64,000 nt of DNA, taken from assembly GCA_037043015.1 (NCBI GenBank), contig CM073327.1:5686727-5750726 (forward strand). Reading direction: 5' to 3'. Shown piece after piece: positions 43,585-62,128 of this stretch; position 1 is the stretch's first letter; every line of letters begins with the position of its first letter. This DNA comes from Bryum argenteum. Its lineage: Eukaryota; Streptophyta; Bryopsida; Bryales; Bryaceae. Under the pieces are notes generated by a model. That model worked only from the letters and a program-made list of their open reading frames with translations. It did no database searches and was not told the DNA's origin. The position numbers and the translations under genes are program-made.

Positions 43585-43610
43585 TTACCGCTCACCGCTC
43601 AACGCTCACA
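43585..43610 (-). repeat. right terminal inverted repeat of the 14.5-kb element
   Basis: 26 bp, an exact reverse complement of 29077-29102. It directly abuts the coding-like fragment of gene BC, with CGG at the junction. Confidence 0.85.
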
Positions 43611-44016
43611 CGGTAGCAACGTCCATCTGGCGGAGATTCGCAACTCCGGCCGCCGGAATTCTGAACACCGCGTCGGCTGTACTGAAGTGATGCGGCCCTG
43701 CCGTCGATAGCAGGTCTCGCATCCTGCGCCGGCGTCACGTCTCCATCGACTACGATAGCACGTATCGCCTCCTGAGCCGGCGTCGTCTCTCCCTCGACAC
43801 CGATAGCACCTCTCGACTCCTGAACAGGCTTCGTGTCTCCCTCGACACCGATAGCAGGTCTCGACTCCTGGGCCGCCGTCCGGTCTACCTCGACACCGAT
43901 AGCAGGTCTCACCTCCGCGACCGGCGTCCCGTCTCCCTCGACAACGATATGAGGTCCCGCATTCTGAGCCCGTGTCCCGTCTCTCTCGACATTATCTAAC
44001 TGAAGTGCCTCCCTCC
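43611..44016 (-). pseudogene. gene BC, linker fragment with 60-bp coding repeats
   Basis: On the minus strand this reads as an acidic repeat protein with units like VEGDTTPAQESRPAIG, about 20 residues (60 bp) each and about six copies between 43700 and 44000. The left end is cut by the TIR element and the right end by the hAT insertion. Its frame continues exactly into the sequence at 62129 across the 8-bp target duplication CTCCCTCC, so it is the linker region of gene BC. Confidence 0.7.
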
Positions 44017-44139
44017 CAGGGTTGTCAAATCGGTCGACATTCGGGGTAAACCTAGTCCGCGGACGTAGTTCGGACTATGTCGACCGGGACCATAGTCCGG
44101 ACCATGGTCCGGGGGGGTAAATGGGAGTTACCCGGTGCT
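44017..44139 (+). repeat. left hAT end: TIR and palindromic subterminal motifs
   Basis: An 11-bp TIR is followed by paired words GGTCGACAT and ATGTCGACC (about 44032-44083). A 16-bp perfect palindrome CCGGACCATGGTCCGG lies at 44097-44112. Similar CGGACCATGGTC words lie at the right end, so these are candidate transposase-binding sites. Confidence 0.7.
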
Positions 44140-44584
44140 GGTAACTGGGGCGTTGGATCATCCACCGGCAAATCATCTCGGCCGTCGGATCTTGATCCCG
44201 ATCGGCCGACCGACCCCGACTCGCCGCCGTCGAGATCGGACGGCCGCCGACCGCATCAAATCCTGGCCGTCGGATCAAGATGGAACGTTGCGGGCCGTTG
44301 GATTGGGGCGCCGTCCGCATGCCCGACGGCCGTCGGATCGGCGCGCCGGCCGATGATCGGCGGCCAGTGGTCGGCCGTCCGACGGACGGATCGGCTCGGC
44401 AAAACTGGCGGCCGGGTCGGCCAGCGGTCGGTCGGCTCAAGAAGCGATCGGTCGGCCTGGAGGGCGGTCGGCCAGGCGGTCGGGCCGTCCGGCCGGTCGG
44501 CCGCGTCGGCCATCCGGGCGGGCCGTCCGATCGGTCGGCCAGGCGACCGATCGGCCGTCCGATCCAGGGCGGGCCGTCGGCCGC
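44140..44584 (+). promoter_or_regulatory. GC-rich repeat tract 1 (promoter module of the kinase-like gene)
   Basis: Dense short repeats of CGGTCGGC, GGCCGTCGG and CCGATC type end directly at a TATA box. The same kind of tract precedes three other genes in this element. The long frames on both strands here are by-products of composition. Confidence 0.55.
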
Positions 44585-44592
44585 TATAAAAG
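44585..44592 (+). promoter_or_regulatory. TATA box for the kinase-like gene
   Basis: TATAAAAG inside GCCGCTATAAAAGGCCGACC, facing right, about 225 bp before the ATG at 44811. Confidence 0.6.
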
Positions 44593-44810
44593 GCCGACCG
44601 GCCTCCTTTTTTCTCACTTCTTTCCTCCATTCTCACGAAGAGAGGATGCGGAGTTTCTCTGGCTGGGAATTCTTTGTGATTCCTGTCCACTGGCTCCTTG
44701 TCTTTTGGAGGAAGGAAGTCACTTGTTATACGGGGGGAGTTTTTGCTCTTTTTTTTTTTTGAAAGTTTTTAAAAACTTCACACTTTACATATTTCCTTTT
44801 TGGGATCAAG

Positions 44811-46290
44811 ATGCCAAGGAGAAGAAGAAGAAGGGTGTTGCGAACTTCTTTGAGAAGTTTGAGCCTCATGAGGTCCCGGCGACGCTTGTAAGGTATTCTT
44901 GATAGAATTTACCGTCAAATTCTATGAGGCCAATGATCTTCGAGCATTGGAAAGCAAATATGTGAGATATCGGGAGGAGGGCATCCGGTTCAAGATTGAA
45001 ATGAGAGATCTCATGATAGAAGTGCTTCAAAGATCCGAAGTGGGTAGCGAGAGACAGAGAAACGAGGGTTCATGTGGTTTTTGGAGAATAGGGTGAAGGA
45101 TGCACTGAAATCCCAAGGTTGTAATAGCCAAATATGGGAGGATATTTCGGGAGGGTGATGAGGATTTCGTTGACGTGGTGAATAGGGTGATTGTTTTTCC
45201 GCCCAAATGAGGGCATTTTCAAAGAATTCACACCGTCGAGGCTCGGAACATGGTGGCAATCGCTAGAGGGACGACAAACTCAAACCATGCGATTGACTCA
45301 TTTGGTTACCATTCCGGATACGACTCAAATCATACGAGTTGACGACACGAGGTTGAAGGGACGGTATGGTACTATTGTCAAAGTTCGCTTCAAGGTGTTG
45401 CGGGCATTGAACCATTTTGGGAATCTGCTTTGCAAAAACTTCCATTCACCACTTGACACGACCGGAGTTGGCAAAATTGGAGCATATGAATGAGTCTATG
45501 GCGATAAGGATTGGACACCGGTGTGATCCGCTTTGTGGCCATTCATCCAGTGAAGAATCAAGGCTATGCGTTTGGTGGAATGGCGGGACTATTCGAGAGA
45601 TCTTTGAACCGCGATATGGATTATGGTGACGATGTCTTTGTACATTTGAACTTTGGGAATTACCCGACGACGAAGTTATTCGGGCGCATCAACTGATTCG
45701 ATTCCGTAAAAAACGGACAGAGCTTGCTTGGGCGTTGTTGCATATCATGAACGAGGTCCACAAGAGCCACCACCTCCATAATGATATATCTCCAGATAAT
45801 ATCCTTCTCCACTTCCCCGCCGATGAATCACGAGTGTATATCGGAGTATGCGATTGGGGTTCTCCACAACGGTTCGGAACCAATGCAATCCCTTTATACA
45901 TTTACAAAACGTGAGGAGATGGTGGAGACCCTTCGAAAACGTTATTGGGTAGATCCACGAGTGGCGTTCTTGTACAAATCGGGTGAGGATTTACAGGTTA
46001 TTCCAAAATACTCGATTGCTTCGGAGGAGTTTGCCACGGCCCGTATAGCACAAAGAATTAATGGGATGACCATGTCTACGGCGTCACGAGCTTGCAACGT
46101 GAAACCGAAATACTTCGGTATTCTCCAATGAAGACCTTGCACAAGCTTTCCATCTTTACATGGATAGAGTATGCAACGAGAGTCGTGACGGCGCTGGAGG
46201 GTTGTCCCATATCATCTCACGGTTTAGCGATATGTTTCATTGGCCTACGCCTCGTGAGCATTTTCGGACGAATTACGAATAGGAGAACGT
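44811..46290 (+). pseudogene. protein-kinase-like gene, frame-broken
   Basis: Scattered frames together give kinase landmarks. There is a glycine-loop-like RLKGRYGTIVKVRF around 45360 and a beta-sheet-like RFVAIHPVKNQGYAF around 45525. The catalytic loop HNDISPDNILL (45772-45804) has the invariant Asp and Asn, and VYIGVCDWG (around 45850) stands where DFG is expected. The reading frame must change several times between 44900 and 46250, so it is probably a pseudogene unless the indels are assembly errors. A Lys-rich start follows the ATG at 44811. The gene sits just inside the left hAT end behind a TATA box and GC tract. What such a kinase would phosphorylate is unknown. Confidence 0.55.
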
Positions 46291-46299
46291 AGAATTTGT

Positions 46300-47217
46300 T
46301 TTACGCATATCGGTTTTATTATAGTTTATGAATTAGTATGTTTGTTCTATTTTCGATTGCAACAATACTCTTTGTTTCAAATGCATTGCATGCCTTTCAA
46401 ATTTTGGCCCACCAAGTATACTTATGTTTATTATAATATTTTGCCCCTTTGCACCATTTGGATGAGGCCTTTAGGGTAAAGCCCCGAAAAAACCTATTGA
46501 TTCAATTTTTAAGTGTTGGTTGGGTAATTCAAATTTAGCGATTTATCTTCTATTTTTCTTCTCATATGTTTATAAGCGAATCACTACTGAAATTCCAATA
46601 TTATTTAAGTCATAATATTTACCAATTTTACAGTGGCAGCCTCCAGAAATTACCAACACAAGCTCAAAATGTATTAGTAAATTCTGAATTACATATTTCA
46701 GAATTTGTCAAAATTCTAGATTATGGAAAACTGTTAGAACTAAGTTACCTCAAAAATCACAAACTCCTACACTCACATACCCCACTCTAAGTTCTTTATA
46801 ATACGAAATATACGTAATGACGTGCATGTTTTACTATAGTATTGTTCGGACTGCTTTTTAGAAAATAACTTGTAAGAATGTCAATCAAGAGGAATGAGCC
46901 TCCCAAATTTTGCATGAATTTACTACATTTGATTACATATAGGGAAAAAATATGTCCAAAATTTTGTTGGTAACAATCGCCAACTCCCCCTTTGCACCGT
47001 GGAGACACTGCCTCCGAAGCAAATCCCAAATAAAGTTTTAAACAAACTGGTTAATAAATGGAATCATAACATATTTACTCAAATAAATGTGTAATATAGG
47101 TTATGGTTCTACATTCCATATATCATTCATATGATGTCCGTTTACCAACAAAACATGGTTAAGAAGGTCTTAAAAAATGACCTCTACCATATGGAGAATA
47201 GAGTTCTCATCCAAATA
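46300..47217. other. AT-rich intergenic DNA, no gene seen
   Basis: Nine hundred bases between the converging kinase-like gene and the Tyr-repeat gene. It holds only short chance frames. Poly(A)-signal-like words are present on both strands but none stands out. Confidence 0.4.
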
Positions 47218-48860
47218 CTACATGTACGTACAGTACATTACAACATGCCTATATGTAAATGTATAACTACTTTGCATCCTAGTCCTTATCATATTGTGTT
47301 CCACTTGGCCCTGCTTGGTCTGAGTACCGCCCTCGCGAATAAGCATCATACAAGCGCCGCTCGTCAGAAATACGATCATTTTCAAGCTTGCGGATGTACT
47401 CCGCTTGACTTTGAATTGTTGCCTCTCGTAGTTGTCTTTCAAACTCGCATCTTCTTCTTCACGAGTTCGGAATGGTGGCGGGGGAGTGTTGTTACTCCCA
47501 TATGCATGTTGGCCATACCCTGGATATGGATACTGAGTGATATGCTCTTCACGATCCTTGTTCCGGTAATTCCAACTGGGCTCGTATTCATCTCTTGCTT
47601 GACTTGGAGTACGGTACTCGGGATTGGTAATAGCTCTACCGTACTCGCCGTGATGATCATGCGTATCTCTTGAATACGTTGGTCTAAAGCTATCTGGAAC
47701 CTCAGGTCTTCTACCGTATTGGTTGTGAGCATCGTATGATCCAGTAGGATACGTTGTGGGGTACCTTTCTCGAATGTTAGGTCCTCTCCCATACTGGCCT
47801 CGAGACTCGTATGTGTCCCTTGGATGTGTTGGGATATGGTACTCTGGACTACTGGTCCCTCTACCATATTGGCCGGGAACATCGTTAAATTCCCGAGGAT
47901 ATGTTGGCGTATAGCTCTCCGGAGCACTCATTCCACCGTATCGGCCTCCCGACTCGTATGTATGTATCCCGAGGATATGTTGGCATATATCTTCCTCCAG
48001 CATTCGGACTTGTATCGTGTTGGCCTCTGGATTGGTACGTATCCCTTGGATGCTCTGGCCTATATGTCTCAGGAGTAGTGGTTCCTGGACCGTATATATT
48101 GCTACCGGGATAATACCCACCACTTCCTATGCCAAAAGAGATTGGTACCATACCCCGTTATTATTTGCGATTATAATTATCTCTTGTGTGACCCCCATAT
48201 CCCCTCGGAGGTGTATGTTGTTGATGTTGATTGACATTCGTATCCCCTGGAGGTGTGTCTTGTTGATGTTGTGTTTGACCCTCGTATCCCCTCGGAGGTG
48301 TATCTTGAGAAATTCGTGTCTGACCTCCATATCTCCTTGGAGGTGTACTTTCTTCATCTTGAACTTCCGACATCTCCGTATATGTCCGATTTGACCAAAG
48401 GGGCATACAATCACTGGGTCCAAGCCAACTAGTTGGTATGAAATCATGGCTCCGATCCACCCGGCAACATTCAAACCTCATTACGGTGCTCCAATTCACG
48501 TTCTTATGTAGAACGATTTACGCCCAAACCATAGCCATGTTGGAATATACCATGATTTCCGGCCTAGTATTCCGTACTCCAACGGCAATGGTCACTTCAT
48601 GATAACGAAGTGTGAAATGTTGACTTGTGCAACTGCTGGCTAGTCCTTCGCGTCGTGGCCCTGATATAATCGCTTGATTTCTTGGCCATAACTTCATGAG
48701 GTGTTTCATCTTCACATATCGCTTGCACATGGTGCAATTCCAAATTCTCGCCGGTTCATCTTCCCATCCATCTTCGCAACACAATTTGGATCGTCGATTG
48801 CTTCCCAATCCATCTCCGGGGCCTTGCCCTTGGGTGCACTAGTACGTCATTCCTCGGCAT
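47218..48860 (-). pseudogene. Tyr/Pro/Gly-repeat protein with a domain shared with the 54959 gene
   Basis: The start ATG at 48860 follows a minus-strand TATA box at 48998-49005. The N-terminal part (in shifting frames, about 48800-48640) contains GWEDEPARIWNCTMCKRYVK, matching GWELEVTEYWTAQICKKYVK in the plus-strand gene at 55100. A segment of TPPRGYEGQT repeats (about 48370-48190) follows. A longer array of about 20-24-residue repeats of the form YGRG...PEYHIPTHPRDTYESRGQ (about 48120-47560) comes next, then a charged tail. The repeats are low-complexity and could form a condensate-like or structural region. The frame changes at least twice. Function unknown. Confidence 0.45.
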
Positions 48861-48997
48861 ATTGTTCACCACAACAAAAAAAAAAAACGCAAAAAAATGG
48901 CGTCGATTATCAAGAGGGGACTCGAGGAGCGCAATCGACATGGAAAACCACAATACCAGGGCGCACACCGAGTGAGAAGAAATGAGCCCCGGTCGGC

Positions 48998-49005
48998 TAT
49001 TTATA
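48998..49005 (-). promoter_or_regulatory. TATA box for the Tyr-repeat gene
   Basis: TATAAATA on the minus strand, inside GGTATAAATAGCCGACC, about 140 bp upstream of the ATG at 48860. It directly abuts GC tract 2. Confidence 0.55.
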
Positions 49006-49490
49006 CCGATCGCGGCGGGTCGGCATTCGCCCGTTCCCCGGCCGTCCGATCTCCGTCGGCCATGGCCGATTCCGCCATCGGTCGGCGGAGATCGGTCGGC
49101 CAATCCGATGCCGCATTGGCGACCGATGCGAGCCGCCCGATCGGTCGACAGATCCGTCGCGGCCGTCGGATCCGGCCGGGCCATCGCGGCCGACCGATCC
49201 GTCGCGGCCGACGGATCCGGCGGCCGCCGTCCGGCGGGGTCGCGAGGGCGGTCGGCCGCCGTCCGTCGATGCGGTCGCCCGGCCGTCCGATCTGATGCGC
49301 CCGGCCGTCCGATCGCGGTCGCCCGCCGTCCGATCGATCGCCGGCCGTCCGTCGTCTGATCGCCCGGCCGTCCGATCTGATGCCCGGCCGTCCGTCTGAT
49401 CGCCGGCCGTCCGTCTGATCGCCGGCCGTCCGATCTGATCGCCCGGCCGTCCGTCTGGTCGGCCGTCCCCCGTCCGGCCGGGCAGGGCTT
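49006..49490 (-). promoter_or_regulatory. GC-rich repeat tract 2 (promoter module of the Tyr-repeat gene)
   Basis: Repeats of GGCCGTCCGATC, GGCCGTCCGTCTGATCGCC and CGGTCGGCC type. The right half is a near-tandem array with a period of about 20 bp (about 49265-49460). The tract ends at the T run. Confidence 0.55.
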
Positions 49491-49498
49491 TGTTGTTT

Positions 49499-49499
<1 letters not shown>

Positions 49500-49545
<46 letters not shown>
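49500..49545. repeat. 46-base T homopolymer
   Basis: An uninterrupted T run directly beyond GC tract 2. On the minus strand it is a poly(A) run, so it could be the tail of a retroposed sequence lying to its right (followed inward by TTTAAT), or simple expansion. Its exact length is unreliable in any assembly. Confidence 0.8.
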
Positions 49546-49547
<2 letters not shown>

Positions 49548-51494
49548 TAAACAACTGTTGGGTTTCCATAGGGAGAAGAAAATGAACGCGATGGAGAACC
49601 AAGTCTTGTTTTTGGATTTTTTCAAACATGAGGCATGCTTTCCCATGGCCCACAAAGAAAGGAATTTTTTTTTAATAGTTCTAGTCTTGGAGTCCAAATT
49701 TCCTCCACATGACCTAAACCAAGTCTTCTACAATGTTGTACGGTTGGGATCTAGATTGCTAACCTTTATTTTCATCTCTTGCACTTTGCAAAACGTGTGT
49801 TTCTAGGCTCTAGAGTCTACACCCCCTTGGGCATTTGAGGTTAAGGGTTACAAACTTACAATGAACATGTATTAGCTTAAAAATATATTTTCTCATGAAC
49901 TATAATAGAAGGCTATTGGCGTTCATGAAAATATGTGTACGTATAAAACATATAACATATAAATTTCATTATACATACATGCGTCCCAAATTTAGAACCA
50001 GGGGATGATAGAATCTATCAGATCCTAATTTGTGTCTTCCATGTCAACAATGAGGTTTTATGTAAATAGACGTGGTTTTATTTATACCGTATATAATAAT
50101 TACTCGTATTTTCTAATTTCATTCTTATTCACATTATAATTAGAATACTTCAAAATGACTTAAAGGAACAAAATAAGTTTTTTTTTTTTTTGCCAATTGG
50201 ATCTAAGATTATATACTCCCCAAACGTAGTGCCTATTTTTAACCAAATGACGCATTATCAAATGAAGGGTCCTATATTGAAATGAAGATGCACAATTTAC
50301 ATTCTCAAACATGTAATATTGTAATAGACTTATAGAGCATGTGTGACCATTTAGTTTCATAACTTTGGTATTACCGTGTTAGGCCTTACATTGACCACAT
50401 TTAGACATAAGAATAGGCTTAATCAAAAAAACATTATGCCTAAACAACTCATTCTATTATTGGCTATTTTTGTTTGACACCCTTGAACTAAGGTAGGAGT
50501 ATATTTATAATGTAGTACATATCATTGTACTTAATTTGCACATATTCTTTTTCCATATTTATTAGTACCATTTTTTTATTGTATTTATTTGAATAATTAT
50601 TTATTTACCTCTTACAAAGGTAATAGAAAGAGGACTCTATTGTTTTCTATTTCGCAATCACAAATAAAGAGAAGTAAAAAGGAGACAAATAAATTTTTGA
50701 AAATATCCAACTCTAAAAGTTTTAACATATCGCATCAACTTATAAAGATTGGTGTTGGAAATCTTTGGAAACTCAATTGTGTGTGGAATGAAAATAAGGG
50801 ATTCGTGTATGCATGGTGTAGTATTGATTTATATTTTTAATCAATTAGAATGCCACTTTTCTCCATCGCATTGTTATTATTATTGACATGGAATAAATCA
50901 CGAGTTTGTTGCAAGGAATATATTGATAGTATTTTCAACATTCAACATAGCATCTAAGATTATAGACTCCCCAAACCTAATGTCCATTTTTTACCAAATG
51001 TCGCATTTCCAAAATAAGGGTCCTATATTAAAATGAGGATCCTCAACTTACATTCTCAACCATGCAATATTGAAATAGAGTTATAGTTGTAGGTCATGTG
51101 CCCCAAAGTTGAGTCATATAACCTCATACACTACGAGATCATAATATGTTAGTACACAAGAGAATTTACGAAATTTCATCACTTCTAGATTGAAGTGAAA
51201 ATTCATATAACAAAGCTACTGCAATCATGAAATCTCTAAGTAAACCATAAACCTAAACCCTAAACCCTAAACCCTAAACCCGGAACCCTAAACCACTAAA
51301 CCAATATCCGTGAATAAAGAATATATAGCATTTCACAAATCAACATAGGATTCCTTTTTCATTGTGTAATAATCACCGAGAATCTAATAACGAAAATGAG
51401 AGGGGATTAAAATTTAAAAAGGATCCTATGTAATTTTGAAAGATTCCGAGAACACAATGGAAACTAAGAATAAAAAAAAAAAAAAAAACCCGAA
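49546..51494. other. AT-rich noncoding region with internal duplications and a telomere-like tract
   Basis: No supported gene. A block at 50201-50345 (ACTCCCCAAACGTAGTG) is repeated in diverged form at 50952-51100. Blocks here also recur at 52505-52690 and 54045-54165, so the region grew by duplication. Confidence 0.5.
51247..51293. repeat. interstitial plant telomere-type repeat
   Basis: About five consecutive AAACCCT units with degenerate edges (CCTAAACCCTAAACCCTAAA). It lies inside the hAT element. It supports a plant origin and may reflect break repair or an ectopic promoter-like telo-box. Confidence 0.75.
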
Positions 51495-51690
51495 GCGGGC
51501 GATGGCGATGTACGATCGGTCAATCTGGGCCGCTCGTGCCCGGCCGACCGATGGGACCGACCGCATGACCGGCCTACCGACCGGCCCGGCGACCGCGGAC
51601 CGGCCGAGCGACCGGGGACCGGCCCGGAGACCGGCCGGCCGGCCGGCCTGCGGTCGGCTATCCGTCGGTCGGTCGGCGTACCTCCCTCCC
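51495..51690. promoter_or_regulatory. GC-rich repeat tract 3, without a recognised gene
   Basis: Short CCGACCGGCC and CGGTCGGC repeats follow an A run at 51474-51488. No gene with a TATA box directly abuts it. Only TATATTTA near 51777 lies on the right. It may be the remnant of a fifth module whose gene has been lost. Confidence 0.4.
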
Positions 51691-54430
51691 CCTCCTCTTC
51701 TTGCCTCTCCCCAGAAGGCCAGAACTCCCGTTTCCTCAACTTCTCTCACTTCCCTGCATTGCATATTTGCATTTCTATATTTAGCGTCTCGCGTACACGT
51801 GGCGTCTAAATCGGGGTAGGGAATGTTCTGACAAGGGAATGTCGGGAAGATCTCTTTGTCAGAAACAAGAATGTTTTATGACAAAGATACTCTAGGCTCC
51901 AAATAACTCTATAATAAGGGACTCCTTGCAAGAGGAGTCAAGGCCAACATATCTCCCATGCCTATTCCCCCATTAGTGAAGGTGTTGGGAGTTGGTGCCC
52001 ATTTTTTCTAGAAGGAAAACGAAGGTTATGGGGCCAATTCTTATTATTAGCGAGAGTCCATGTTTTAGATTTGTTCTCATTGATTTTATTTCTTACAAAT
52101 ATTCTTTCTTAATTTGAATGAAGAGAACGCTTTTAGGCCATGAATTTTCATTCATTTCTTGAATGTCCCAACTTTTGTCAAATATTGATCCATTCTCACA
52201 AGGAGATGTTTTCATGTATTGGCCCCATTAATGGCTTGGCCCCTATTGTGCACTTTGAGGTGGCCCTAAATCCTCTCATATCACTTTCCGGACTTTTTAC
52301 CTATTCCTTGATGAGAGTATACTTATGTCTAACATTGGAGAGATCTAAGTATATATTAAATGTAGGTGAGCATGTGTGAGTATTTTGTTTTCATAACTTT
52401 GGTATTACCGTATTAGTCAATATTTAAACTTCCTATTTAGCCCTTAAGTTGTCCACATTTTATGGTCTATATTATTTCATGTGCATTTAGAAATAATTTC
52501 ATCGTTGTGTATTAATTTGAGTAATTATTTATTTACCTCTTGTAAAGGTAATTGATATACAGTTCTATTGTTTTCTATATTGTGATCATAAATTAAGAGA
52601 AGTAAAAAGCGTTACAAATAAATTAATAAAAATATCGCACCCTATAAGTTTTTAACATATGGCAATAACGGCATTAACTTATAAAGTTATAATCATATTT
52701 GATCTTGTACACGTATAGTACTTCTATTTTATGTTAAATGAAGTTGATTATTCTTATATTAGAAACTTTGATGGATTGATTAGGGAATAGAATGATTTGA
52801 ATAGCCATTGCTTTTTCATTTAGAGTATATTGTGGATGAAATCACTTGAGCATAGGATATAAGGTTCATGGTCTAGGATTTATTAATTTCCCTAGCTAAT
52901 ATTTTTATTTTTCCATATCCAATACATTATTTTACAAACCTTTGTAGGCTAATTCCTTTATTATATATTGGACATGTTATAGTCTCATCCGGGATGTTGG
53001 TTCTTAATCGGGTCCCCTCTAAAATGAAAATAATAAAATAAATAATATATATACACTATACGGTAAAGATAGAGCGGTTTTTGCTAAAAACATATTTAGA
53101 GGTAAAGTCACTCTACATAAATAGCGATTTAATGCTAAGATTTTATTTAGAGTTAAACAAGTTCTATATAAATAGTGGTTCTACTTAAATACATATTTAG
53201 AGGTAAAGCAAATCAATTCTACTTTGTGTGCGAGAACTATAAATCAAAAAGTACATACATAAGTATATATACTATACATGTATTGATGTATACAGAAATA
53301 TTATATTTATAATAAATTCAACAATAATACGATACAATTATAATATATATTACATATAATATATACCTTCATATACATATTATACTATGAAACATAAAGT
53401 ACATACATAAATATACATATTCTAATTTATTAATACATAGTATATACGTAAATATACATATCCTACTTTAAATATAAATGGTTTACATACATGAAGAGTT
53501 AGATTTCTATAATTGATCTATTAATAAGATTTGTTTTTAGAAATTGGAAAGTAAAAGACTATAGAAAGACTTTTAGGTGGATATATAAACTCATGGGTAA
53601 GATGGAAGAGACTATTTTTTGTCGTGAGTTCTTTGGTTATATTTATATACAATTGTTATATTCGATATGAAAATTGGAGTTTGTATCTATCTATCTTCTT
53701 GAAGAACAAGAATTACCAGTTTATAATTATCCTATTAGTATAAGAAATTCGTTGCAAGGGAGACGGTTAAGTAGAAACTTTTAAGCGACTAGGTCTAATT
53801 TTTTAAAAAAACCTAAAACAAATTTAAATAAAACAACTTTAAATTTGTAGGAAAGTTTACACAATTTGGGAATAAAATTTTATCCACATTTCTTATTTCT
53901 TGAGATCTATCTCACGTTTTTTACATGCGCTTCTTACGTTGGTAATTGTATTTTTAATTCAAAATCACTCAAAACATAGAATTTGGTACAAAGGGTGGTT
54001 ATTTAGTCTCCATTGAGGATGCCCTAAAAAACATACTCTTGTAAGTCATGTGCATAAAAGTTTGATTCATAGAGCCTCATAGATTGCGAGATGATAATTT
54101 ATTAGTGCACAAGAGAATCTACTAAATTTCATCATTTTCGATTGAAGTGAAATTCATAACAAGTTGGTTTTGAGGGGTTTTGGCACTTTTTACGGCTACT
54201 TTATACTAGAGGCCATTTGAAGTTGGGCCCATTTGGAGTTGAGCCCACTTGGACTTAAAGTGTGCCTTAACTTTAGCTCTACTTTACAAAGTGGGTCATA
54301 GAGTGGATCTTGCAATATAAAGTCCTAATGCCCACTTCGAGGGCCCAAATTTAATATTTTAGAGATAGATAGATCTTCATTGGTTGATGCCTAGGGTTTG
54401 TAAAGGGGCACAACAAATTTTGGGGTTAGG
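51691..54430. other. AT-rich noncoding region, no gene seen
   Basis: Contains a diverged duplicate (52370-52690) of 50340-50760, sharing TTTCATAACTTTGGTATTAC and TAATTATTTATTTACCTCTT. A very AT-rich stretch with ATATAC words lies at 53220-53500. A duplicate (54045-54165) of 51090-51220 is also present. Only short chance frames. Confidence 0.5.
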
Positions 54431-54781
54431 GTTTAGAGGGCGGCGGCGGCCGCTCCGCTGAGCCCGGCTGCGAAGGTTCGGCCCGGTCGGTCGGTCGGCG
54501 GCCAGGCCAGTCGGTCCGGGCGATCAATCGGACGGTCCCGATGGCCCCACGGCCGTCCGGGGTCGGTCAGCGGTCCGGGGCGGTCGGCAGTCCGGGGGGT
54601 CGGCAGCGAGTCCGGGGCGGCGGCGGTCGGTCCGGGGCGGTCGGCAGTCCGGGGCGGTCGGCGGTCCGGGGCGGTCGGTCGTCGGGGGACTGGACGGGCC
54701 TGCGGGCCAGCAATGATCGGCCGCTCGGGGCTTGAGGCGGCTAGGCCGGTCGGTTCGGTCGGCGGTCCGGCATGAGGGCAC
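54431..54781 (+). promoter_or_regulatory. GC-rich repeat tract 4 (promoter module of the gene at 54959)
   Basis: Repeats of GGTCGGCAGTCCGGGGC type, with periods of about 18-20 bp, ending directly at a TATA box. Confidence 0.55.
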
Positions 54782-54789
54782 TATAAAGG
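54782..54789 (+). promoter_or_regulatory. TATA box for the gene at 54959
   Basis: TATAAAGG in the context CACTATAAAGGGCCGTCCGG, 177 bp before the ATG. The context closely matches that of the TATA box at 44585. Confidence 0.6.
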
Positions 54790-54958
54790 GCCGTCCGGCT
54801 TCATTTTCCACCACTTCCTCTCCTCATGGTAACCCAATTCGAATTGCCTCCGATTTGCTAAGGCGCTGCGCATTCTAGTTGGAGAGGAGAAGGGGTCGGT
54901 TTTTTTCACATTTGTTGCGGCCGCTTCGTCCCGTGGATCCTTCGGTGATACTTGCACG

Positions 54959-57091
54959 ATGACGTCGATCGAGAACGTGAACACGAGTATGGAGGTGGAG
55001 AATTCGATGATATCGTGAGCGCCTAAGAAGAGGAATAAACAAAAAGGTGCAACTCATGGACTGAATTGGGAGATTTTAGAGAATGAAGACATTAAAGCGG
55101 AACGCGGTTGGGAACTGGAGGTGACGGAGTATTGGACCGCTCAAATTTGCAAGAAATATGTGAAGATGTTTCACATTGGCAAGCTTTGGCTTAAAGAATG
55201 TCATGCAGTTCATACCAAGAACTTTTGTTGCAACCCGGCAACATGCAAGGATGATCACTTTATCCACCGTGCAGAGGAAGTATGGCGGGCCTTGTTCGGG
55301 GATCGTGCCAAAACAAAAGGGTACTTTTGTTACCAATTGTTGGCAATGGTATATGCTGAGTTGATACTACAGCGGAAGATAAATTGGAGCACGTACCAAA
55401 CTAATACTCAATTTCCGCTTCGCATTGAAAGGAAGCAGAAGCATATCCCGGATTGCTTTGATCCACAATCTGCCTTGACAAAGCATATTTTGGAGGTTTT
55501 GAGGAAAAAAAAAAAAAAACAAAGGCTGAAGAGGATACAACGGAAGATGAGAATGTCGTTACAAAGGATACAGACATTCCTCTTGCCACGGATGGTCTAT
55601 CAAACGAACAATCTGCAGTTGATAGGCTTCGGGATGTAAACGCAGTTGGAGAGCAGTCATTGGAAGAGGCGAATGCAGTGCAAGATCAGGTGGGGGACTT
55701 AGAGAATGTAGTGGAAGAGGTACTCTCCCCTCTCATTCCAGATAACCCTATTATTCCCAATGGCCTAAATTTGACCGATAATAATCCAAAATCGAATGAG
55801 GCAGGGCCAAGTAAACCAATGGAAACAACATCCATGCCAGATTCCATTACTCCGCAGATGGAGAAGGATTGGTGGTCAAATTTCGAAGAATTATATGAAG
55901 GAGTACCAAGCAACAAGAAACTGCGAGAGTATCTCACTTCTATTGACGAAGTAGCGAAGGTCATATACGACGAAACCATTCCAGATGGTGAGACGAAGAT
56001 GAAGTGGGAAGACACCAAAAAACCCATATATTGCAAGTCGGACCGAGATGAAAGTCGGGGTTGAAGTTGTTCTTTGCTATGGTTCCACGGTTTTTAGAAT
56101 TGGCTCAAACTCTTGCCATAATGACGCCTCGAATGCTAGAAGCAGCTATAGACTACGAGAAGATATCAAAGGCATGGCTCCCGTATGTGAAAGCAAGGAT
56201 AAAGGATACGGAGGAGTTTATAAGTCTTCAGGATAAGTATAACGTAGCAATTACCGTGATTGACAAGGTGGTTTATGATTTCAAACTTAATGGATATGAG
56301 CGCAGAAAATCCCCGTACTACTGCAATCTCATGGAGCAAGCGATGAACATTTTGAATCCTCCCGAAGAAGGTGATGTGGAAGATGTCCCCGTAAATCCAA
56401 AAGATAATTCTCCAATTTCAAAAATTGGAGAAAGGATCGAAAGGGAAGGTGATCTTATCCCATCTAATAATGATGGGAATAATAAGAGTGATGGCCCGGA
56501 GATGAAAGGTACTCCATCATGCGAGCCAGGGCCTACGAGGGCGAGAGAGGACATTCAAGAGAAGGAAGCACGGTTCAAGACGCGGAGAAAGGAAAACAAA
56601 TCATCGATTTGGACGATGATACGGAATCGGAGGACAATGGAAGGAGGGGTGTGCGTGTAGAGGATGATACACATTCGAAGGGAAAAGATTGCCTACATAA
56701 TCAATGTCCTAAAGAAACATTGGAAATGCAATTGGAAGCGATGATGAAGCAGAGAGATGAGGCACGAGTGAACTAGAATCCATACGAATGACATTGAGAA
56801 ATGTGGATTATACACCACGCGAAGAGAACATATTGCCTTGGTTGGCTTGGGTTCACCGACTTCAAGATAGGGAGGCCATGGTTTCAAAGGCACAACATAA
56901 TCAAGAAGATCGCCGCCAAATCATGTGGTTCGAGTGAACATGTGAATACATCATTGGAGGAATTTAAAAATACGAAAGATTACGAGAACACGAACCTACT
57001 AAGGTCACTATTTGGGGTGATGTCGAGGAGATGATGGAGCGAACAAATTTCAATCGGATGGGAAAAGATGATGATATTGATTGGAGTTTGG
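54959..57091 (+). pseudogene. unknown acidic/coiled protein with Cys-containing N-terminal domain
   Basis: ATG at 54959 opens MTSIENVNTSMEVENS, then an in-frame TGA stands at 55016-55018. The same frame continues with a conserved-looking domain (about 55060-55500) holding GWELEVTEYWTAQICKKYVK and NFCCNPATCKDDHFIHRAEE. The first half matches the minus-strand gene at 47218-48860. After an A run at 55505-55519 the frame changes to an acidic linker. Further changes near 56055, 56575 and 56770 lead through a helical part (RFLELAQTLAIMTPRMLEAA) to a coiled end (ENILPWLAWVHRLQDREAM). At least four breaks make it a pseudogene unless they are assembly errors. It could be one gene with the RING protein that follows 60 bases later. 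Confidence 0.45.
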
Positions 57092-57154
57092 AAGTAGCGT
57101 AAGGATGGGTGCCATACAACTCATTCTCATCGCATTTTGTGGAATCAAATCGAA

Positions 57155-58242
57155 ATGTCGTTTACACATGCGACCCCCACCGACAATATCAAGGAAAAAT
57201 GTGGCATGTGCCGATATCATTTCGGTCCAGAAGGAGCGTACACACTAGGCCAATGTGGCCATAACTTTCATGTTACTTGCATAGCAAGCGCTGCCCGGGG
57301 AAAATCATCATGTCCTATATGTCGTTCTCCAATTAGCACGAGATTCTACGAAGTGATGGGGATGCGCGATGTCATGCCACCTGGGCACGAGTTCAACCGA
57401 TGGAATCTCCCTTTGGATCAACTTCCAAAGAAACTTCACAACTTTCGTGAGTGGGGGAAAGCACTTGAATGGGATAGTTCAACATCAAAACACCAGCTCC
57501 TCATGCATGATGTAGGCGAGACAGATCCATTGCTTTGGATGACACGTGACTACGAGGTGGAGATTAGGGCGCGAGATATTGAAGACAACGAGCAACGAGA
57601 GATGTTTTGCCGCAACTTTGGAGGACATTGGAGTACTGAACACAATCGTTTCTTCCGATTCCCTCCAAAGAGAGTGGAGAAGGGAGAAGATGGTTTGTGG
57701 CATGAGGTAACAAGTGACATTGAGTTTGGAGAGGAGTACAAGAAGTACGATGATAGGCCGATTGGAAGGGCTTTAGTCCTAGCCAAGTTGGAAGAGGCCG
57801 CACACTTACGGATTTCAACGAAGGAGGAATCTTTCAAAGACGCAGATCGTACTTTACGGGAGGCGGTAGAGAAATTTGAGTCGCGCATTAAGAACATCAT
57901 TACTCATTGGACGACAATGATCAAAGACCCGGCCGGAGTTATTGGTGTCTATCACAAAGAGAGGACTCCTTTGTGAAGGATGTGGTGGGACGAATCGAGG
58001 AGGCCATGAAAATCTTCCGTTCCAAAAATGCTAACCCACCCAAGAAACGGAAAAGGGATGATGGCAATGAGAGCGACGAGCGATTGGATGTCGGGCAACA
58101 ACAGAGAAATTGCTGCGTGGATCAAGAATACGACGAGGGCGGTAGAATTGCTAGACCAAGCCAAAGACCCCGGACTCGTAGTATAGCAAATACAATTGAT
58201 CTGAGAAGAGCATTCAGTTGCGATGTAATAGAAATCCAGTAG
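57155..58242 (+). pseudogene. RING-H2 finger protein, E3 ubiquitin ligase-like
   Basis: The first ATG is at 57155. A C3H2C3 RING lies at residues 15-60: CGMC, then CGHNFHVTC, then CPIC, with the usual spacing. RING-H2 proteins recruit ubiquitin-conjugating enzymes. The rest (about 210 residues) has no recognised domain and ends in charged, helical sequence. The frame closes at 57976, and the C-terminal half continues one frame over (KDVVGRIEEAMKIF...PPKKRKRDD, a likely nuclear signal) to a stop at 58242. One break near 57950 is therefore likely. No GC tract precedes it, which fits read-through from the gene at 54959. It converges on the hAT transposase, whose stop is 260 bp away. Confidence 0.65.
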
Positions 58243-58504
58243 AAGCGTAGACGGTTAAGGAGGGTTACAGTTCCCGGAATAGGGTCGCATACCATTTTGG
58301 ATTTGTAATGCATGGTTTTTATAATGAAGTTTTTTATTTCTTATGATGTAATAGTCTTTTGTTGACTATTCACCGACATTTTCGACACAAAATAAAGTAC
58401 GAACATATCAACAGTTTGGTAATAAAGTTTCACGAGCTATACTATCTCTAGCATACACGAAGTATGCTAGACCTCTACTACGTGTCTGAGCATGTAATTA
58501 ATGT

Positions 58505-61408
58505 CTATTCATCCACATCGGTAGGAATTGCATAATCGCTGTCTCCTTTTACTTCAGCTCCGCTAGATCCCGTAGGGTCATCTTCGAAATCACTACTAAC
58601 TTCTTGTTTGATTCTTCGTTTGTGACTTCCCGAATGAATGATCTTGAATTTTCCCGCATTCTCAATGGCATCAAGGGGATTCTTCGGTTTATCATGAAGA
58701 AAGCGGAAGCATTGGAGCTTTACGTTTCGTCATAACTCTTGGAGGCTCCTTCTTCCGTAGCCCCAACCTCCCGGAAGGTTCTTGTATCCCAATTGAAGAA
58801 GCGGTACATCCGAGTCACTAGAGATTCCGCCGGAATTGGAACGTCTTGTTCGAGGTCGCACTTGATTTGAAAGTGACACCAAACGTTTGGAAGATTTCTC
58901 CATCATCAGAGGGACCTCTAAATCACATTTTTGAAATAGAGACCGAGAGGCAACAAGCAGTAAAGCGGGTTCGTCGCGATGGCGGACGTCATTTATCGTT
59001 ATTGGATCCAACGTAATAAAGACGGCCATGAGTATCATCCCCACGATTTTCACATTCGAACAACGTTCTCGTCCGTATTTTGGAGTTAGTCCGATGCGAG
59101 GGGTATTATCACATGTGACTTTGTCGGTATCCTTTTGAAACCGTGGTAAATGAGCTAGGGGCAACAATTCATCTGGATCATCCGCCTCGACTTCATCGTC
59201 AACAACAAAGTCATACGTGGTGTTCGGGACGTTCAAAGCATCTTGCAAGCTCATAGCGGGGATGCTATTGAGGTCATCTTCTAGGTCCTCCAAAACGTGA
59301 TCCGAAAAGCCTTCACCAATTGAGTTATGGGGGTTTCTTCATCCTCGGAGTCACGTCGTCACGATCCTCTACATCCAAGTTCTCCGAGTACCACCTCTTC
59401 TCATCCGTTAACTTTGCGTTTGCAAGTAACTTTGAGTTGGTGTATACAAAGACCAAGTCATCTCGCCTTTCCGGTAGCAACCGATTCCGCTTCCTATCGT
59501 GAACGAAAGAGTAATCGCTCCAATTGCGTTCGCACGCCGACGATGACACGGTTTGAGCTAGGATTCGCTTTGCAATCGAAGCAAGAGAGTTTTCCAACAA
59601 ACCCTTCAATTTCCCACCAAACAAAGGGAGAACATTTCGACTCGGAGGATCCAACATCTCATGAAATGGTGCACTCCTCATTCGAAATGCCATATATTCA
59701 TTCGCCACATCATGATAAGTGCCCGGAGCACATAGAGTTTTTAGAACACGCCCGCACCCATGCCGGACCTCGTATCATCATCTCTGCTAACTCTTTGTCA
59801 TGTAGTACATAAGGATTCAAAAGTGCACCAAAGACAGAAAGCGATCTGTTGTCATCATCTTTTTCCTTGCGTAGAAGTTCTCCTTCGCAATGTCCGCTAA
59901 ATCCGTCGGGAGTGAAAATGGTTCGTAGATAGCGTCGACATGCTTCTCGAGCCGACGAACGATATGCAAAGCCTTGCCCGTACAAGGCTCCTTGCCGTCG
60001 AATTCCCGAAGAGCATACACTCATCGGGGCCACCATATCTCGGAAGTTTGTACAACGCCTTCCAAAACCGTCATCCAAAACCACTTTTTTCTTACGTTGC
60101 GGGACTCCAATAATTTATCTCTAGTGATAGAGACTTCTTCGAGGCATATGACAACCACTGGGGATCTACAACAGTTTGCTCCAAAGAATCGCGAACCCGC
60201 AATAAGCGATCTATCATTATAAAATTGCACGCAAATCTTGTTTTCCTGTGCATCAATAGGCTAAACCTTGTCTCATGTTTACGAAACACGGCTAAAGGCA
60301 TTTGACGATTTTTGATGAACTTGACCAAGCCCTTGGCCTTTTCCAAAGTTTCTTTCACCCATGACGCCTTTCTCCAATCTTCCAACAACAAATCCATCGC
60401 ATGCGTGGCGCATCCTCGAATGAATATATGGGGATAATCCTCAACGACTAATCGAGAGGCATTAATCATTACGAAGCGTTGTCCGTGCGGACTTGGACAA
60501 CGTTCTCGGGGCCAACTTGTTTGATGAACTTGACCATGATAGAGGCCATATACATTCTTGTCTCTTTTCTTTGCCGGTAGTATCGACGGGGCGCCAAGAA
60601 AAAGCTCTCCAAATAGAGTCACTAGCATTGCATTTACAAGAGGGCGACTACTCACTGATGACCATCCATCCATGGCTAAAGTTCCCCCCGAACTTCCGAA
60701 GGCTCTCCTTGAGTCTACTATCTAGTTTTCCTTCTAGATCACTTTTTACTTGTCCCAACAACTTTGTCCGAATGTCATGGTAAGAAGGTGGGACATATGG
60801 TTTTCGGAAAGAAGCGGTTTTCATTACGGCTTCCTTGAAGATTGATTCCGTGCTACAAAGAACGGTACGTTTGCTTCATAGAAAAACTTTGCCCAAAGTA
60901 TGTCTAGTTCCCGCCTATCCGCTTCAGCAAAACCATCTTCAATCACAGATTGTTTCATCGCCCTATTGATATGCCCACCAACCCTCACTTGTCCCGCAAA
61001 GTTAGGAACGGCGGAGATTGATCCAACTAAAGGTGTTGATGGAATCGAAGGGTAGCTTGAAAGATCCCACGCAAGAGTCTCCACCATGGGACCTTGGCGT
61101 GCCAACATTCGGAACTTCTGATGACGATGGTATTGAATGAAAACCGCTCATTTCTCCATTATGTGGAGGGAACCGCCCGTCACATCTTCGAAATAAATCC
61201 ATCACTCGGGTGTTCAATTTTGGACAAAGCGTAACTGTATTAAGGCGGACCCCACGCTTGCCTTCATAACCAAGGTGACTGAGCCGCCGTTCTAGCCTCT
61301 TGCTCATAACCTTATGACAGAGATTGCATTGGACAATGGGGTCGTGGTAGGTTGGCCTTGTACTTCATGAACATCGGTGAACCAAGGTGAGGATGATTTG
61401 TTGGCCAT
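58505..61408 (-). pseudogene. hAT transposase, BED/DUF659/dimerisation type, frame-broken
   Basis: ATG at 61408 opens MANKSSSPWFTD. A BED-type zinc finger (VQCNLCHKV...RLSHL, about 61340-61270) lies in the next frame. Then come FFYEANVPFFVAR (around 60860) and the DUF659 core with DGWSSVSSRPLVNAML (around 60665-60620). YPHIFIRGCATHAMDLLLED (around 60430-60370) and TRFSLLMHRKTRFACNFIMI follow. The C-terminal hAT dimerisation domain is clear (SSSACERNWSDYSFVHDRKR, about 59540-59480). An unusual extension of about 250 residues follows, acidic then basic (SGSHKRRIKQE), to a stop at 58505-58507. The frame changes several times (near 61345, 60100, 59820 and 58730 among others), so it is probably inactive as read. 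It cuts and pastes this element using the CAGGG ends. Confidence 0.85.
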
Positions 61409-61607
61409 TTTGATAGGTAGGACACCTCAAAATGATCAAACGTGGTAATAGATATGTAGAAAAAAATGTCAAGAGTTCGTAAACGAACTCTGCACTTCCG
61501 AACTCAATACGTACCAAGCAACGGACACATAACATAAAGTTATGCAGCTCAGAGACTTTGGGTCGCATTCACAATTCGGAAGTGAAATGAGGCCTTGTGT
61601 CTCTTCT

Positions 61608-61615
61608 CTTATATA
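61608..61615 (-). promoter_or_regulatory. TATA box for the hAT transposase
   Basis: TATATAAG on the minus strand, about 200 bp upstream of the transposase ATG at 61408 and 60 bp inside GC tract 5. Confidence 0.55.
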
Positions 61616-61670
61616 CCTTCAACCCTGAATTTGACCGTTGAAATTTGAATTTCTGCCGTTGAATTCAAGT

Positions 61671-62000
61671 GGTCGGGGCTTCGGAGCCGGCCGACCTCGG
61701 CGGTCGCCACAGCGGTCGGCGGCCGACCTTGCCGGTCGCCGCAGCGGTCGGCGGCCGACCTCGCCGGTCGCGACAGCGGTCGGCGGCCGACCTCGCCGGT
61801 CTCGGGGCCGGTCGGCGGCCGACCTCGCCGGTCTCGGGGCCGGTCGGCGGCCGACCTCGCCCGACCGCACACCGGTCGGCCTCGGGAACGTCGGTCCCGG
61901 CACCGGTCGGCCGGTCGGAGAGTCGGACGGGGGTGCGGTCGGCCGGTCAAACGGTCGGACGGGGGTGCGGTCGGCTGGACGGGGGTGCGGTCGGCCACCT
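61671..62000 (-). promoter_or_regulatory. GC-rich repeat tract 5: 32-bp tandem repeats at the right hAT end
   Basis: Units starting GGTCGGCGGCCGACCTCGCC recur at 61746, 61778, 61810 and 61842, a strict 32-bp period. Looser GGGGGTGCGGTCGGC repeats follow to 62000. The tract is both the transposase upstream region and the right subterminal region, so it may bind the transposase as subterminal repeats do in other hAT elements. Confidence 0.65.
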
Positions 62001-62070
62001 GTCGGACGGTAATTTACCCTAGGTAAATTATAAAAAACCCGTTATGTCACCGACAGGTCCTAGGGGCTGA

Positions 62071-62128
62071 GGACGACCGGACCATGGTCGACCGGTCGCC
62101 CCCTGGTCCGGTCGTCCTGACAACCCTG
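62071..62128 (-). repeat. right hAT end: TIR and 14-bp hairpin
   Basis: GGACGACCGGACCA (62071-62084) is perfectly inverted at 62104-62117 (TGGTCCGGTCGTCC), directly followed by the TIR 62118-62128. The hairpin overlaps a CGGACCATGGTC word shared with the left end. Confidence 0.75.

Follow-up and report, generated by a model that had tools for sequence, protein, structure and literature searches.

hAT elements are the textbook one-gene transposons; to our knowledge, the transposase is the sole gene of ordinary autonomous hATs. Members of the superfamily, among them Ac/Ds, hobo, Tam3, and Hermes, are characterized by 8-bp target-site duplications, short TIRs, a C-terminal dimerization domain, and short derivatives with the same ends.

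What of DNA elements that carry further genes? MuDR, with mudrB, and En/Spm, with tnpA, are autonomous plant DNA transposons whose extra genes are of use to the element, as are those of the VANDAL/Hiun MULEs; we know of no kinase or RING ligase among the accessory proteins of any of these. The Starships of fungi are giant DNA elements with several genes besides a recombinase, and they vary in cargo. ToxhAT of wheat-pathogen fungi is a 14-kb gene-carrying element formerly called a hAT, and in Pack-TYPE elements (Pack-hAT) hAT ends enclose other coding sequence. According to one paper, the range of hAT TIRs is 5-27 bp, Starships use a tyrosine recombinase (YR), and ToxhAT is non-autonomous, the authors now favoring Tc1/mariner as its likely affiliation given TA duplications and 74-bp TIRs (PMC12506042). 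Two others describe VANC anti-silencing genes in VANDAL/Hiun MULEs (PMC10398659, PMC5735166), and a fourth describes Pack-TYPE elements as non-autonomous and containing gene fragments (PMC8903248).

The element described here has all the hAT features listed above. Unlike ordinary autonomous hATs, it is about 18 kb long and has three further genes. Unlike Pack-TYPE elements, its family combines whole genes with a transposase, in a fixed set that is partly under selection. Unlike Starships, whose first gene is the tyrosine recombinase, it has a hAT transposase and fixed content, and no recombinase was among the Pfam hits of the element frames scanned. VANDAL/Hiun, MuDR, and En/Spm differ in belonging to other superfamilies and in encoding other proteins. 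We read the element, with a probability of roughly 0.88 for the structural and evolutionary part, as one frameshifted copy of a family of giant cut-and-paste hATs whose working form has a fixed set of four genes.

Element boundaries and insertion site

The window, meaning the whole stretch of DNA analyzed, is 64,000 nt from Bryum argenteum (GCA_037043015.1, contig CM073327.1, 5,686,727-5,750,726, forward strand), position 1 being its first letter. The hAT-type element spans window positions 44017-62128 (18,112 bp) and is bounded as follows.

44009..44016, unstranded: target-site duplication, left copy CTCCCTCC; single copy at the empty site on C4 (L036)
44017..44027, + strand: left TIR CAGGGTTGTCA; extended left end, 108 genome matches, control 0
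44017..44354, + strand: left terminal region; retained at 85-86% identity in the 3 short derivatives read
61717..62128, + strand: right terminal region; all or most retained, at 86-90% identity, in the 3 short derivatives read
62118..62128, - strand: right TIR TGACAACCCTG; extended right end, 85 genome matches, control 0
62129..62136, unstranded: target-site duplication, right copy CTCCCTCC; identical to the left copy

The TIRs match exactly over 11 bp, a length inside the hAT range, and the 8-bp duplication is exact on both flanks. A preliminary description had claimed these very ends and a hAT transposase, and both were confirmed, the latter by its DUF659 and Dimer_Tnp_hAT domains. The 8-bp duplication, TIR length, and dimerization domain place the element among the hATs, with the catalytic D-D-E residues and activity being putative. 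Extended end patterns (<=2 mismatches) occur genome-wide 108 times for the left end and 85 times for the right, versus 0 for the reversed controls of both, so the ends are not a product of chance. The two terminal regions are likely the cis-acting ends.

Does the genome contain the target without the element? The joined flanks are matched over all 180 bases at two sites, one on C4 (98%) and one on C7 (96%). An empty site with a single CTCCCTCC, of the kind that the preliminary description had suggested looking for, is found on C4; the site on C7 reads CTCCGTCC. Both are paralogous or related sites.

Genes and modules inside the element

Judged by frames and domains, the recognized genes are four: a protein kinase-like gene, a gene called KYVKM here, a gene that joins a paralogous domain to a RING-H2 region, and the hAT transposase. 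They lie among GC-rich modules.

44280..44600, unstranded: GC-rich hypervariable module, upstream of the kinase gene
44811..46279, + strand: protein kinase-like gene; ~495 aa in relatives; frame disrupted in the window copy
47279..48860, - strand: KYVKM gene, function unassigned; N-terminal domain with KYVKM motif, then repetitive low-complexity C-terminal part
49000..49500, unstranded: GC-rich hypervariable module, upstream of the KYVKM gene
51500..51720, unstranded: GC-rich module, no recognized gene beside it
54420..54800, unstranded: GC-rich hypervariable module, upstream of the RING gene
54990..58225, + strand: long RING gene (start codon not fixed); N-terminal domain paralogous to the KYVKM gene, middle part, C-terminal RING-H2 region
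58508..61408, - strand: hAT transposase, DUF659 + Dimer_Tnp_hAT; single exon of ~965 codons; frame disrupted in the window copy
61660..62020, unstranded: GC-rich 32-bp repeat module, upstream of the transposase, inside the right end

Five gene modules had been proposed. The GC-rich modules do number five, but they accompany four genes, the one at 51500-51720 being without a recognized gene. That the modules are copies of one another was rejected, their similarity being weak, low-complexity, and mostly compositional. Two paralogous genes and a separate RING-H2 gene had also been proposed. The paralogy holds at the level of the domain, but one paralogue and the RING-H2 region share one frame, which rules out five separate genes; that frame is disrupted in the window copy and open for 1122 aa in another copy of the family.

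The transposase frame of one copy matches PF05699 (E 4.8e-9) and PF04937 (E 8.2e-21) in Pfam. The RING-H2 domain matches PF13639 (E 7.4e-9, above the Pfam cut-off), and its product is predicted to be of ubiquitin ligase type. The kinase gene matches PF00069 weakly, with a score under the gathering cut-off. Both the kinase-like and the RING-H2 gene noted in the preliminary description are therefore present. Across 28 relatives, K212, E231, N334, and D329 (the D of HND) of the kinase are invariant, and D352-W-G is invariant or nearly so; these correspond to the catalytic Lys, Glu, HxD, Asn, and D-x-G positions of protein kinases. By its sequence, the product is an outlying kinase. The KYVKM gene (47279..48860) has no Pfam match, no homologues of the middle part of the RING gene were scored, and no structured RNA was found in the element at Rfam gathering scores.

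Many other family copies have broken frames, as the window copy does. Are these breaks real? Coding parts contain 84 private 1-bp deletions, of which 32 fall in single bases versus 43.6 expected, a slight shift to runs. Homopolymer sequencing error was rejected as the sole cause because the deletions barely favor runs; the frameshifts are likely mostly real decay, with assembly error a further possible source. In one copy, the kinase aligns in one frame, with two stops, to residues 1-495 of a relative, and other copies have open frames of 509 aa (kinase) and 1122 aa (RING gene).

Copies in the genome and mobility

Does the set of genes move as a unit? Probes for the kinase, KYVKM gene, RING, and transposase find 75, 76, 71, and 68 copies genome-wide. 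The ends form 73 pairs, spaced at 1.3-1.6 kb (4 pairs), 5.9-8.5 kb (19), 11-16 kb (2), 17-19.4 kb (27), 19.6-32 kb (17), and more (4). All four gene probes occur in order in 23 of the 27 pairs of 17-19.4 kb (the other 4 miss one probe each) and in 16 of the 17 pairs of 19.6-32 kb, several of which probably hold further insertions. The four genes are thus together in 39 of the 44 pairs of 17-32 kb, and 41 of these have the transposase probe. A left end is listed 0.8-2.6 kb upstream of 66 of the 75 kinase loci, and within 25 kb of 72.

The preliminary description stated that the idea of mobile cargo would fail if other copies enclosed only a transposase, or if TIRs and duplication were found together nowhere else. 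Neither is the case. One of 68 transposase loci, searched over 60 kb upstream, lacks all three cargo probes; by this count, there are practically no near-identical transposase copies that lack cargo. Perfect 8-bp target duplications, all different, flank 12 of the 16 copies read; without the window copy, TIRs and perfect duplication occur together in 11 of 15; among full-length copies, 9 of 13 have one and 4 do not. Ten other copies are collinear with the window copy end to end, and all eleven are 94.8-97.8% identical pairwise. The end search suggested earlier thus returned numerous copies that agree in gene order but lie in different flanks, with target duplications of their own. Read from these flanks, the 18-kb unit inserts whole with 8-bp target duplications, and the four genes move together.

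What do the shorter pairs contain? No gene probe lies in 22 of the 23 below 9 kb. The 6-7 kb elements with the same ends were considered as carriers of alternative cargo and rejected: frames reach <=160 aa in L033 and <=225 aa in L034, and the six frames scanned gave no Pfam match. The two look like non-coding derivatives.

Selection on the genes

In 13 copies, relative N/S was measured for substitutions common to several copies versus private ones. For shared substitutions, it is 0.32 in the kinase, 0.39 in the RING region, and 0.37 in the transposase; for private ones, it is 0.83-0.85, the kinase value of 0.85 being close to neutral. By this measure, purifying selection acts on all three of these parts along the replicating lineage. 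Shared values of 1.10 (RING-gene middle), 0.68 (N-terminal part of the KYVKM gene), and 0.70 (stretch before the RING) do not differ from neutral. For the pooled cargo, the difference between shared (0.57) and private (0.73) substitutions is not significant (Fisher p 0.115), for the RING region alone it is borderline (p 0.088), and private substitutions pooled over the cargo fall below neutral (p 0.004). Non-coding control frames range from 0.78 to 2.16, so single N/S values are noisy.

A sister family and more distant relatives

A sister family, with 218 right ends, has RING regions 55-63% identical to those described here. At 12 of 59 sister RING loci, a listed sister kinase in the same orientation lies 10.9-24.9 kb upstream (control placements, 0), and at 20 of 59, a listed right end lies 3.3-6.1 kb downstream (wrong placements, 0). 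These placements show that kinase, RING, and right end follow one another in the sister family as they do here, at matching distances; at the one locus where it was read, the sister transposase (60.6% identical) sits in the same place, beside the RING gene. For another sister copy, two 1-kb stretches were searched for the ends without success.

Kinase and RING relatives also form large sequence clusters (126 and 107 members) in another moss. Loci M758_UG082900, KC19_VG055000, and M758_3G001500 represent the kinase and RING clusters. Among the listed relatives, the one plant given a name is Ceratodon purpureus, and one relative is labeled a Bacilli MAG. A viral or prokaryotic source of the kinase was rejected, since neither IMG/VR nor GTDB contigs yielded a relative with the pattern method at its sensitivity.

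Why are the extra genes there?

Could the extra genes serve the host, as stress or defense genes spread by the element and kept by host selection? Plant signaling makes frequent use of kinases and RING ligases, and purifying selection is silent on the beneficiary. However, a listed element end occurs no more than 25 kb upstream of 72 of the 75 near-identical kinase loci, and no clear set of host copies freed from the element appeared at that sensitivity, diverged loci having been sampled (87 of 1087 candidates scored). The near-neutral private substitutions of the kinase also fit selection on the element lineage, not on a host locus. We consider host benefit improbable, though the best of the alternatives.

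Chance capture of the Pack-hAT type, in which an ordinary hAT recently took up host genes that have no role for it, is considerably less probable still. Plants are known to have hAT ends enclosing captured gene fragments (PMC8903248), and some parts of the cargo are without significant selection. Against this stand the co-travel of the four genes in most long end pairs, selection that is as strong for the kinase and RING region as for the transposase, and the clusters of relatives in another moss, as well as the order and spacing of the sister family. Long-term retention, suggested in the preliminary description, gains support because the kinase and RING region are selected and because the sister family spaces its kinase, RING, and right end alike, with the transposase in the same place at the one locus read.

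A virus or virus-like element integrating by a hAT transposase is marginally less credible again. Teratorn is reportedly a comparable combination, of piggyBac and a herpesvirus, and large DNA viruses also carry kinase and RING genes, as this multigene giant does; however, no capsid, polymerase, or packaging family was among the Pfam hits (in the subset of frames scanned), and the kinase has no relative in IMG/VR at the sensitivity used. A composite of nested unrelated repeats can be dismissed: large plant elements are often nests, and several pairs over 19.6 kb probably contain insertions, but the end-to-end collinearity, perfect duplications, and common gene order of the copies refute it.

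Proposed mechanism and significance

The best reading is, then, a hAT of autonomous type whose accessory genes, of predicted function, are obligate. The term "cargo" may mislead, as the extra genes behave as accessory genes that belong to the element itself. The transposase would bind the ~340-bp and ~420-bp terminal regions, excise the unit, and insert it elsewhere; these are proposed as binding regions because the short derivatives keep about nothing else. The kinase and RING proteins would work on the element's behalf: most likely, they would either modify or clear away factors of host silencing or repair, or adjust the amount of transposase. Such a selfish role, argued by analogy with accessory proteins of some other plant DNA transposons, has in our estimate slightly less than an even chance.

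A broader proposal is more tentative. An old moss lineage of giant autonomous hATs may encode a regulatory set (kinase, RING ubiquitin ligase, and paired domain) that defeats host silencing or steers transposition; it would predate the split from Ceratodon, with many copies on moss sex chromosomes annotated as host genes.

hAT transposition has moved 18 kb repeatedly. In the present hAT, three genes besides the transposase form a fixed set, and by the substitution measure, purifying selection on the kinase is as strong as that on the transposase. The family is a case in which a cut-and-paste transposon with predicted protein-modifying enzymes can be tested directly, and the kinase and RING expansions annotated in moss genomes, including those on the Ceratodon sex chromosomes, may be transposon genes.

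The element and its insertion site

The element spans 18,112 bp between exact terminal inverted repeats (TIRs), with the 8-bp duplication CTCCCTCC flanking it on either side; on re-reading the sequence, the repeats, duplication and length all proved to be as first described. Its features are as follows.

44017-44027, left TIR, exact end of the 18,112-bp element
44811-46279, + strand, gene 1, kinase-like (relatives of about 495 aa)
47279-48860, - strand, gene 2, unknown function, no Pfam match
about 54990-58225, + strand, gene 3, gene 2-like domain, middle part and RING-H2 region
61408-58508, - strand, gene 4, hAT transposase (reading frame and Pfam)
62118-62128, right TIR, exact end of the 18,112-bp element

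What does the target look like without the element? With the flanks fused at a single CTCCCTCC, all 180 bases align to C4:26784817-26784996 (98%) and to C7:6757927-6758106 (96%), and element-free related sites therefore exist. The preliminary description had suggested looking for an empty target with a single CTCCCTCC, and the C4 site is one; at the corresponding place the C7 site carries CTCCGTCC. The element sits within a reading frame (window 43592-44016 and 62137-62677) that contains repeats and belongs to a small family, with related places on C4, C7 and C1; as read by eye, this frame continues across the flanks once they are fused with a single CTCCCTCC.

Gene 1 is 95% identical to P0046, 78% to P0047 (Ceratodon M758_3G001500) and 48% to P0087 (Ceratodon KC19_VG055000; 126 member sequences). 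Across 28 relatives there is little or no variation at the lysine, glutamate, HND, N and DWG positions, and the PDB matches, to kinases, are weak (best E 5.5e-4). One relative, P0065, is labelled a Bacilli bacterium MAG protein; no gene 1 relative was found in GTDB contigs, so P0065 is probably a misassigned plant contig. The N-terminal 120 residues of genes 2 and 3 are 33% identical (E 1e-21). In P0027, a gene 3 relative, the middle part runs into the RING in one frame, and another element copy has a 1122-aa open frame for gene 3; Ceratodon M758_UG082900 (107 member sequences) is 52% identical. Among the gene 4 matches in PDB that are of a fitting kind, those to Hermes transposase score best, yet they are not significant (E at least 0.24). 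Frameshifts break genes 1, 3 and 4 in the window copy.

Five gene modules had been proposed; the multi-gene content stands, while the number falls to four recognised genes. The AT-rich stretch at 49800-54400 (down to 27% G+C) contains a GC-rich module at 51500-51720 without a recognised gene, adjoined by about nine plant telomere-type TAAACCC units (51241-51302), inside the element. In the first 11 copies, the frames of at least 130 aa listed there, after very R/G/P/S/A-rich frames were filtered out, all overlap this module, and the two frames scanned had no Pfam match. A fifth gene may have been lost from this stretch, or it may hold an RNA gene. Elsewhere in the window (10482-12815, 14673-15524 and 25954-26877) lie pieces of LTR retrotransposons of Ty3/gypsy type, with reverse transcriptase, RNase H, integrase and chromodomain.

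Copies and gene order across the genome

The giant multi-gene hAT family is real and repeated. Across 258.8 Mb in 25 contigs, the extended left end has 108 matches and the extended right end 85 (at most 2 mismatches), with none for either reversed control. Joining 104 left ends (100 from the listing of the 108 matches, plus 4 from a separate search) to the nearest of the 85 right ends that shared the strand and lay no more than 60 kb away gave 73 pairs, some of the longer of which may be wrongly paired. Four 36-base gene probes, identical in the first 11 copies, were searched at up to 3 mismatches and matched 75 (kinase), 76 (gene 2), 71 (RING) and 68 (transposase) places, with none for the controls.

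End pairs by size, with gene probes in the order kinase, gene 2, RING, transposase
1.3-1.6 kb: 4 pairs
5.9-8.5 kb: 19 pairs; 22 of the 23 pairs below 9 kb lack all four probes, the other (8.5 kb) having kinase and gene 2
11-16 kb: 2 pairs; one with three probes, one with none
17-19.4 kb: 27 pairs; order complete in 23
19.6-32 kb: 17 pairs; order complete in 16
38-59 kb: 4 pairs; all four probes in each, one with extra nested probes

The incomplete pairs of 17-32 kb lack the transposase probe (three) or the RING probe (two). All but one of the 68 transposase loci have at least one of the three cargo probes within 60 kb upstream, and, among the matches listed, a left end lies 0.8-2.6 kb upstream of the kinase in 66 of 75 loci and within 25 kb in 72.

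Sixteen copies were read: that of the window, ten from pairs of 17.6-19.0 kb, two on C1 (X and Y) picked for another kinase-probe variant, and three short ones. Perfect 8-bp duplications flank 12 of the 16, every one different. Copies G and I have an altered left end and no perfect duplication, copy H has CTAGACCT and AGTCTAGT at its ends, which would nearly match given a small insertion, and the 8-bp flanks of copy Y do not match. The first 11 full-length copies are collinear and pairwise 94.8-97.8% identical; X and Y are 93-96% identical to the remaining full-length copies. Searching with the element ends, as had been proposed, thus returned many copies with the same gene order and their own differing duplications, and the main point of the preliminary description, a giant hAT element carrying several genes, was correct.

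The short relatives L033 (1-8122), L034 (1-7530) and L035 (1-2264), of 7.1, 6.5 and 1.26 kb, have perfect target duplications and share little with the giant element beyond the terminal 340-420 bp; six frames scanned in L033 and L034 gave no Pfam match. Kinase loci are frequent on C1 (26 of 75, against 12.8 expected by length). The two kinase-probe types differ by chromosome: C1 has 23 of 39 of the first and 3 of 36 of the second, and C6 has 3 of 39 and 13 of 36 (Fisher p 3e-6 and 0.004, with no correction for relatedness). This skew may have arisen by local hopping or in separate bursts.

Has such an element been described before? Among the titles and abstract openings listed by searches of the open PMC library, none concerns a hAT whose kinase or RING genes form a conserved set. 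By term search, the whole word hAT is absent from the main text of the review Giant Transposons in Eukaryotes (PMC6431247) and of a 2026 review of gene capture in plants (PMC13317346).

Selection and proposed mechanism

Substitutions in 13 copies were split into private (post-insertion) and shared (replicating lineage), with the neutral expectation for N/S derived from the private spectrum. Frames were assembled piecewise from copies with an open frame, omitting the first 106 or so kinase codons. Shared N/S relative to neutral is 0.32 for the kinase (p 2e-5), 0.39 for the RING region at 57232-58225 (p 0.004), 0.37 for the transposase (p 4e-8) and 0.45 for the repetitive part of gene 2 (p 0.006). 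These shared values show selection on the kinase, RING region and transposase. In the same 13 copies, no departure from neutral was found for the N-terminal parts of gene 2 (0.68) and gene 3 (0.45, p 0.11) or for the gene 3 middle (1.10) and pre-RING stretch (0.70). Private values by part are 0.54-0.85, none individually significant (pooled cargo 0.73, p 0.004). Comparing shared with private values gives p 0.016 (kinase), 0.0004 (transposase) and 0.088 (RING region); for the pooled cargo (shared 0.57) no significant difference was found (Fisher p 0.115). Premature stops number 19 private and 1 shared in the cargo, and 4 and 2 in the transposase. Six frames of non-coding stretches, as a control in the 11-copy set, gave shared values of 0.78-2.16.

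In the proposed mechanism, the step that the copies demonstrate is that the unit inserts as a whole and duplicates 8 bp of target. Short derivatives keep about 340 bp on the left and up to 420 bp on the right, GC-rich arrays included, and these parts would be the ends bound by the transposase. Genes 1-3 may act in trans for the element; VANC of VANDAL elements is a precedent for an element-encoded helper. Against a purely host-serving role, lone kinase copies decay near-neutrally and the lineage is constrained.

A sister family and the age of the kinase

The RING query (98 of 852 first-look candidates scored) splits the genome loci into the giant-element family and a sister group, 55-63% identical, of at least 59 loci; long stop-free frames, of up to 1159 aa, occur in several of them. 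At one sister locus, L042, the RING gene is adjoined by a hAT transposase in the same orientation, 60.6% identical over 589 aligned columns, beyond which lies the right end TGACATCCCTG. With at most 3 mismatches, this end matches 218 places, 100 of them listed, and its control none. Among the matches listed, it lies 3.3-6.1 kb downstream of at least 20 of the 59 sister RING genes (wrong placements 0), 15 of them at 3.8-4.2 kb (window element, 3.9 kb). The sister kinases number 54 loci at 50-56% identity (87 of 1087 candidates scored), a count from which one at 54% that belongs to the giant-element family has already been removed; again among the matches listed, the right end lies 14.5-32.2 kb downstream of at least 18 of the 54 (wrong placements 0; window element, 17.3 kb), and a sister kinase lies 10.9-24.9 kb upstream of at least 12 of the 59 sister RING loci (control placements 0). 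Random placement, for which some contigs were assumed to be 17 Mb long, gave a mean of 0.36 such kinase-RING pairings and a maximum of 4 in 500. A search of two 1-kb stretches for the ends of another sister copy did not find them.

How old are these kinases? In a tree of 25 kinases, with nine inner forks lacking resolution and four long-branch rows, the copy from this genome groups with P0046 (99/97) and Ceratodon P0047 (95/94), and P0087, the high-copy kinase of the Ceratodon V chromosome, falls in a separate clade with P0077 and P0082 (100/100). From the placement of P0047 versus P0087, two element-type kinase lineages are therefore probably older than the split of Bryum argenteum and Ceratodon, assuming that the Ceratodon genes are element-borne.
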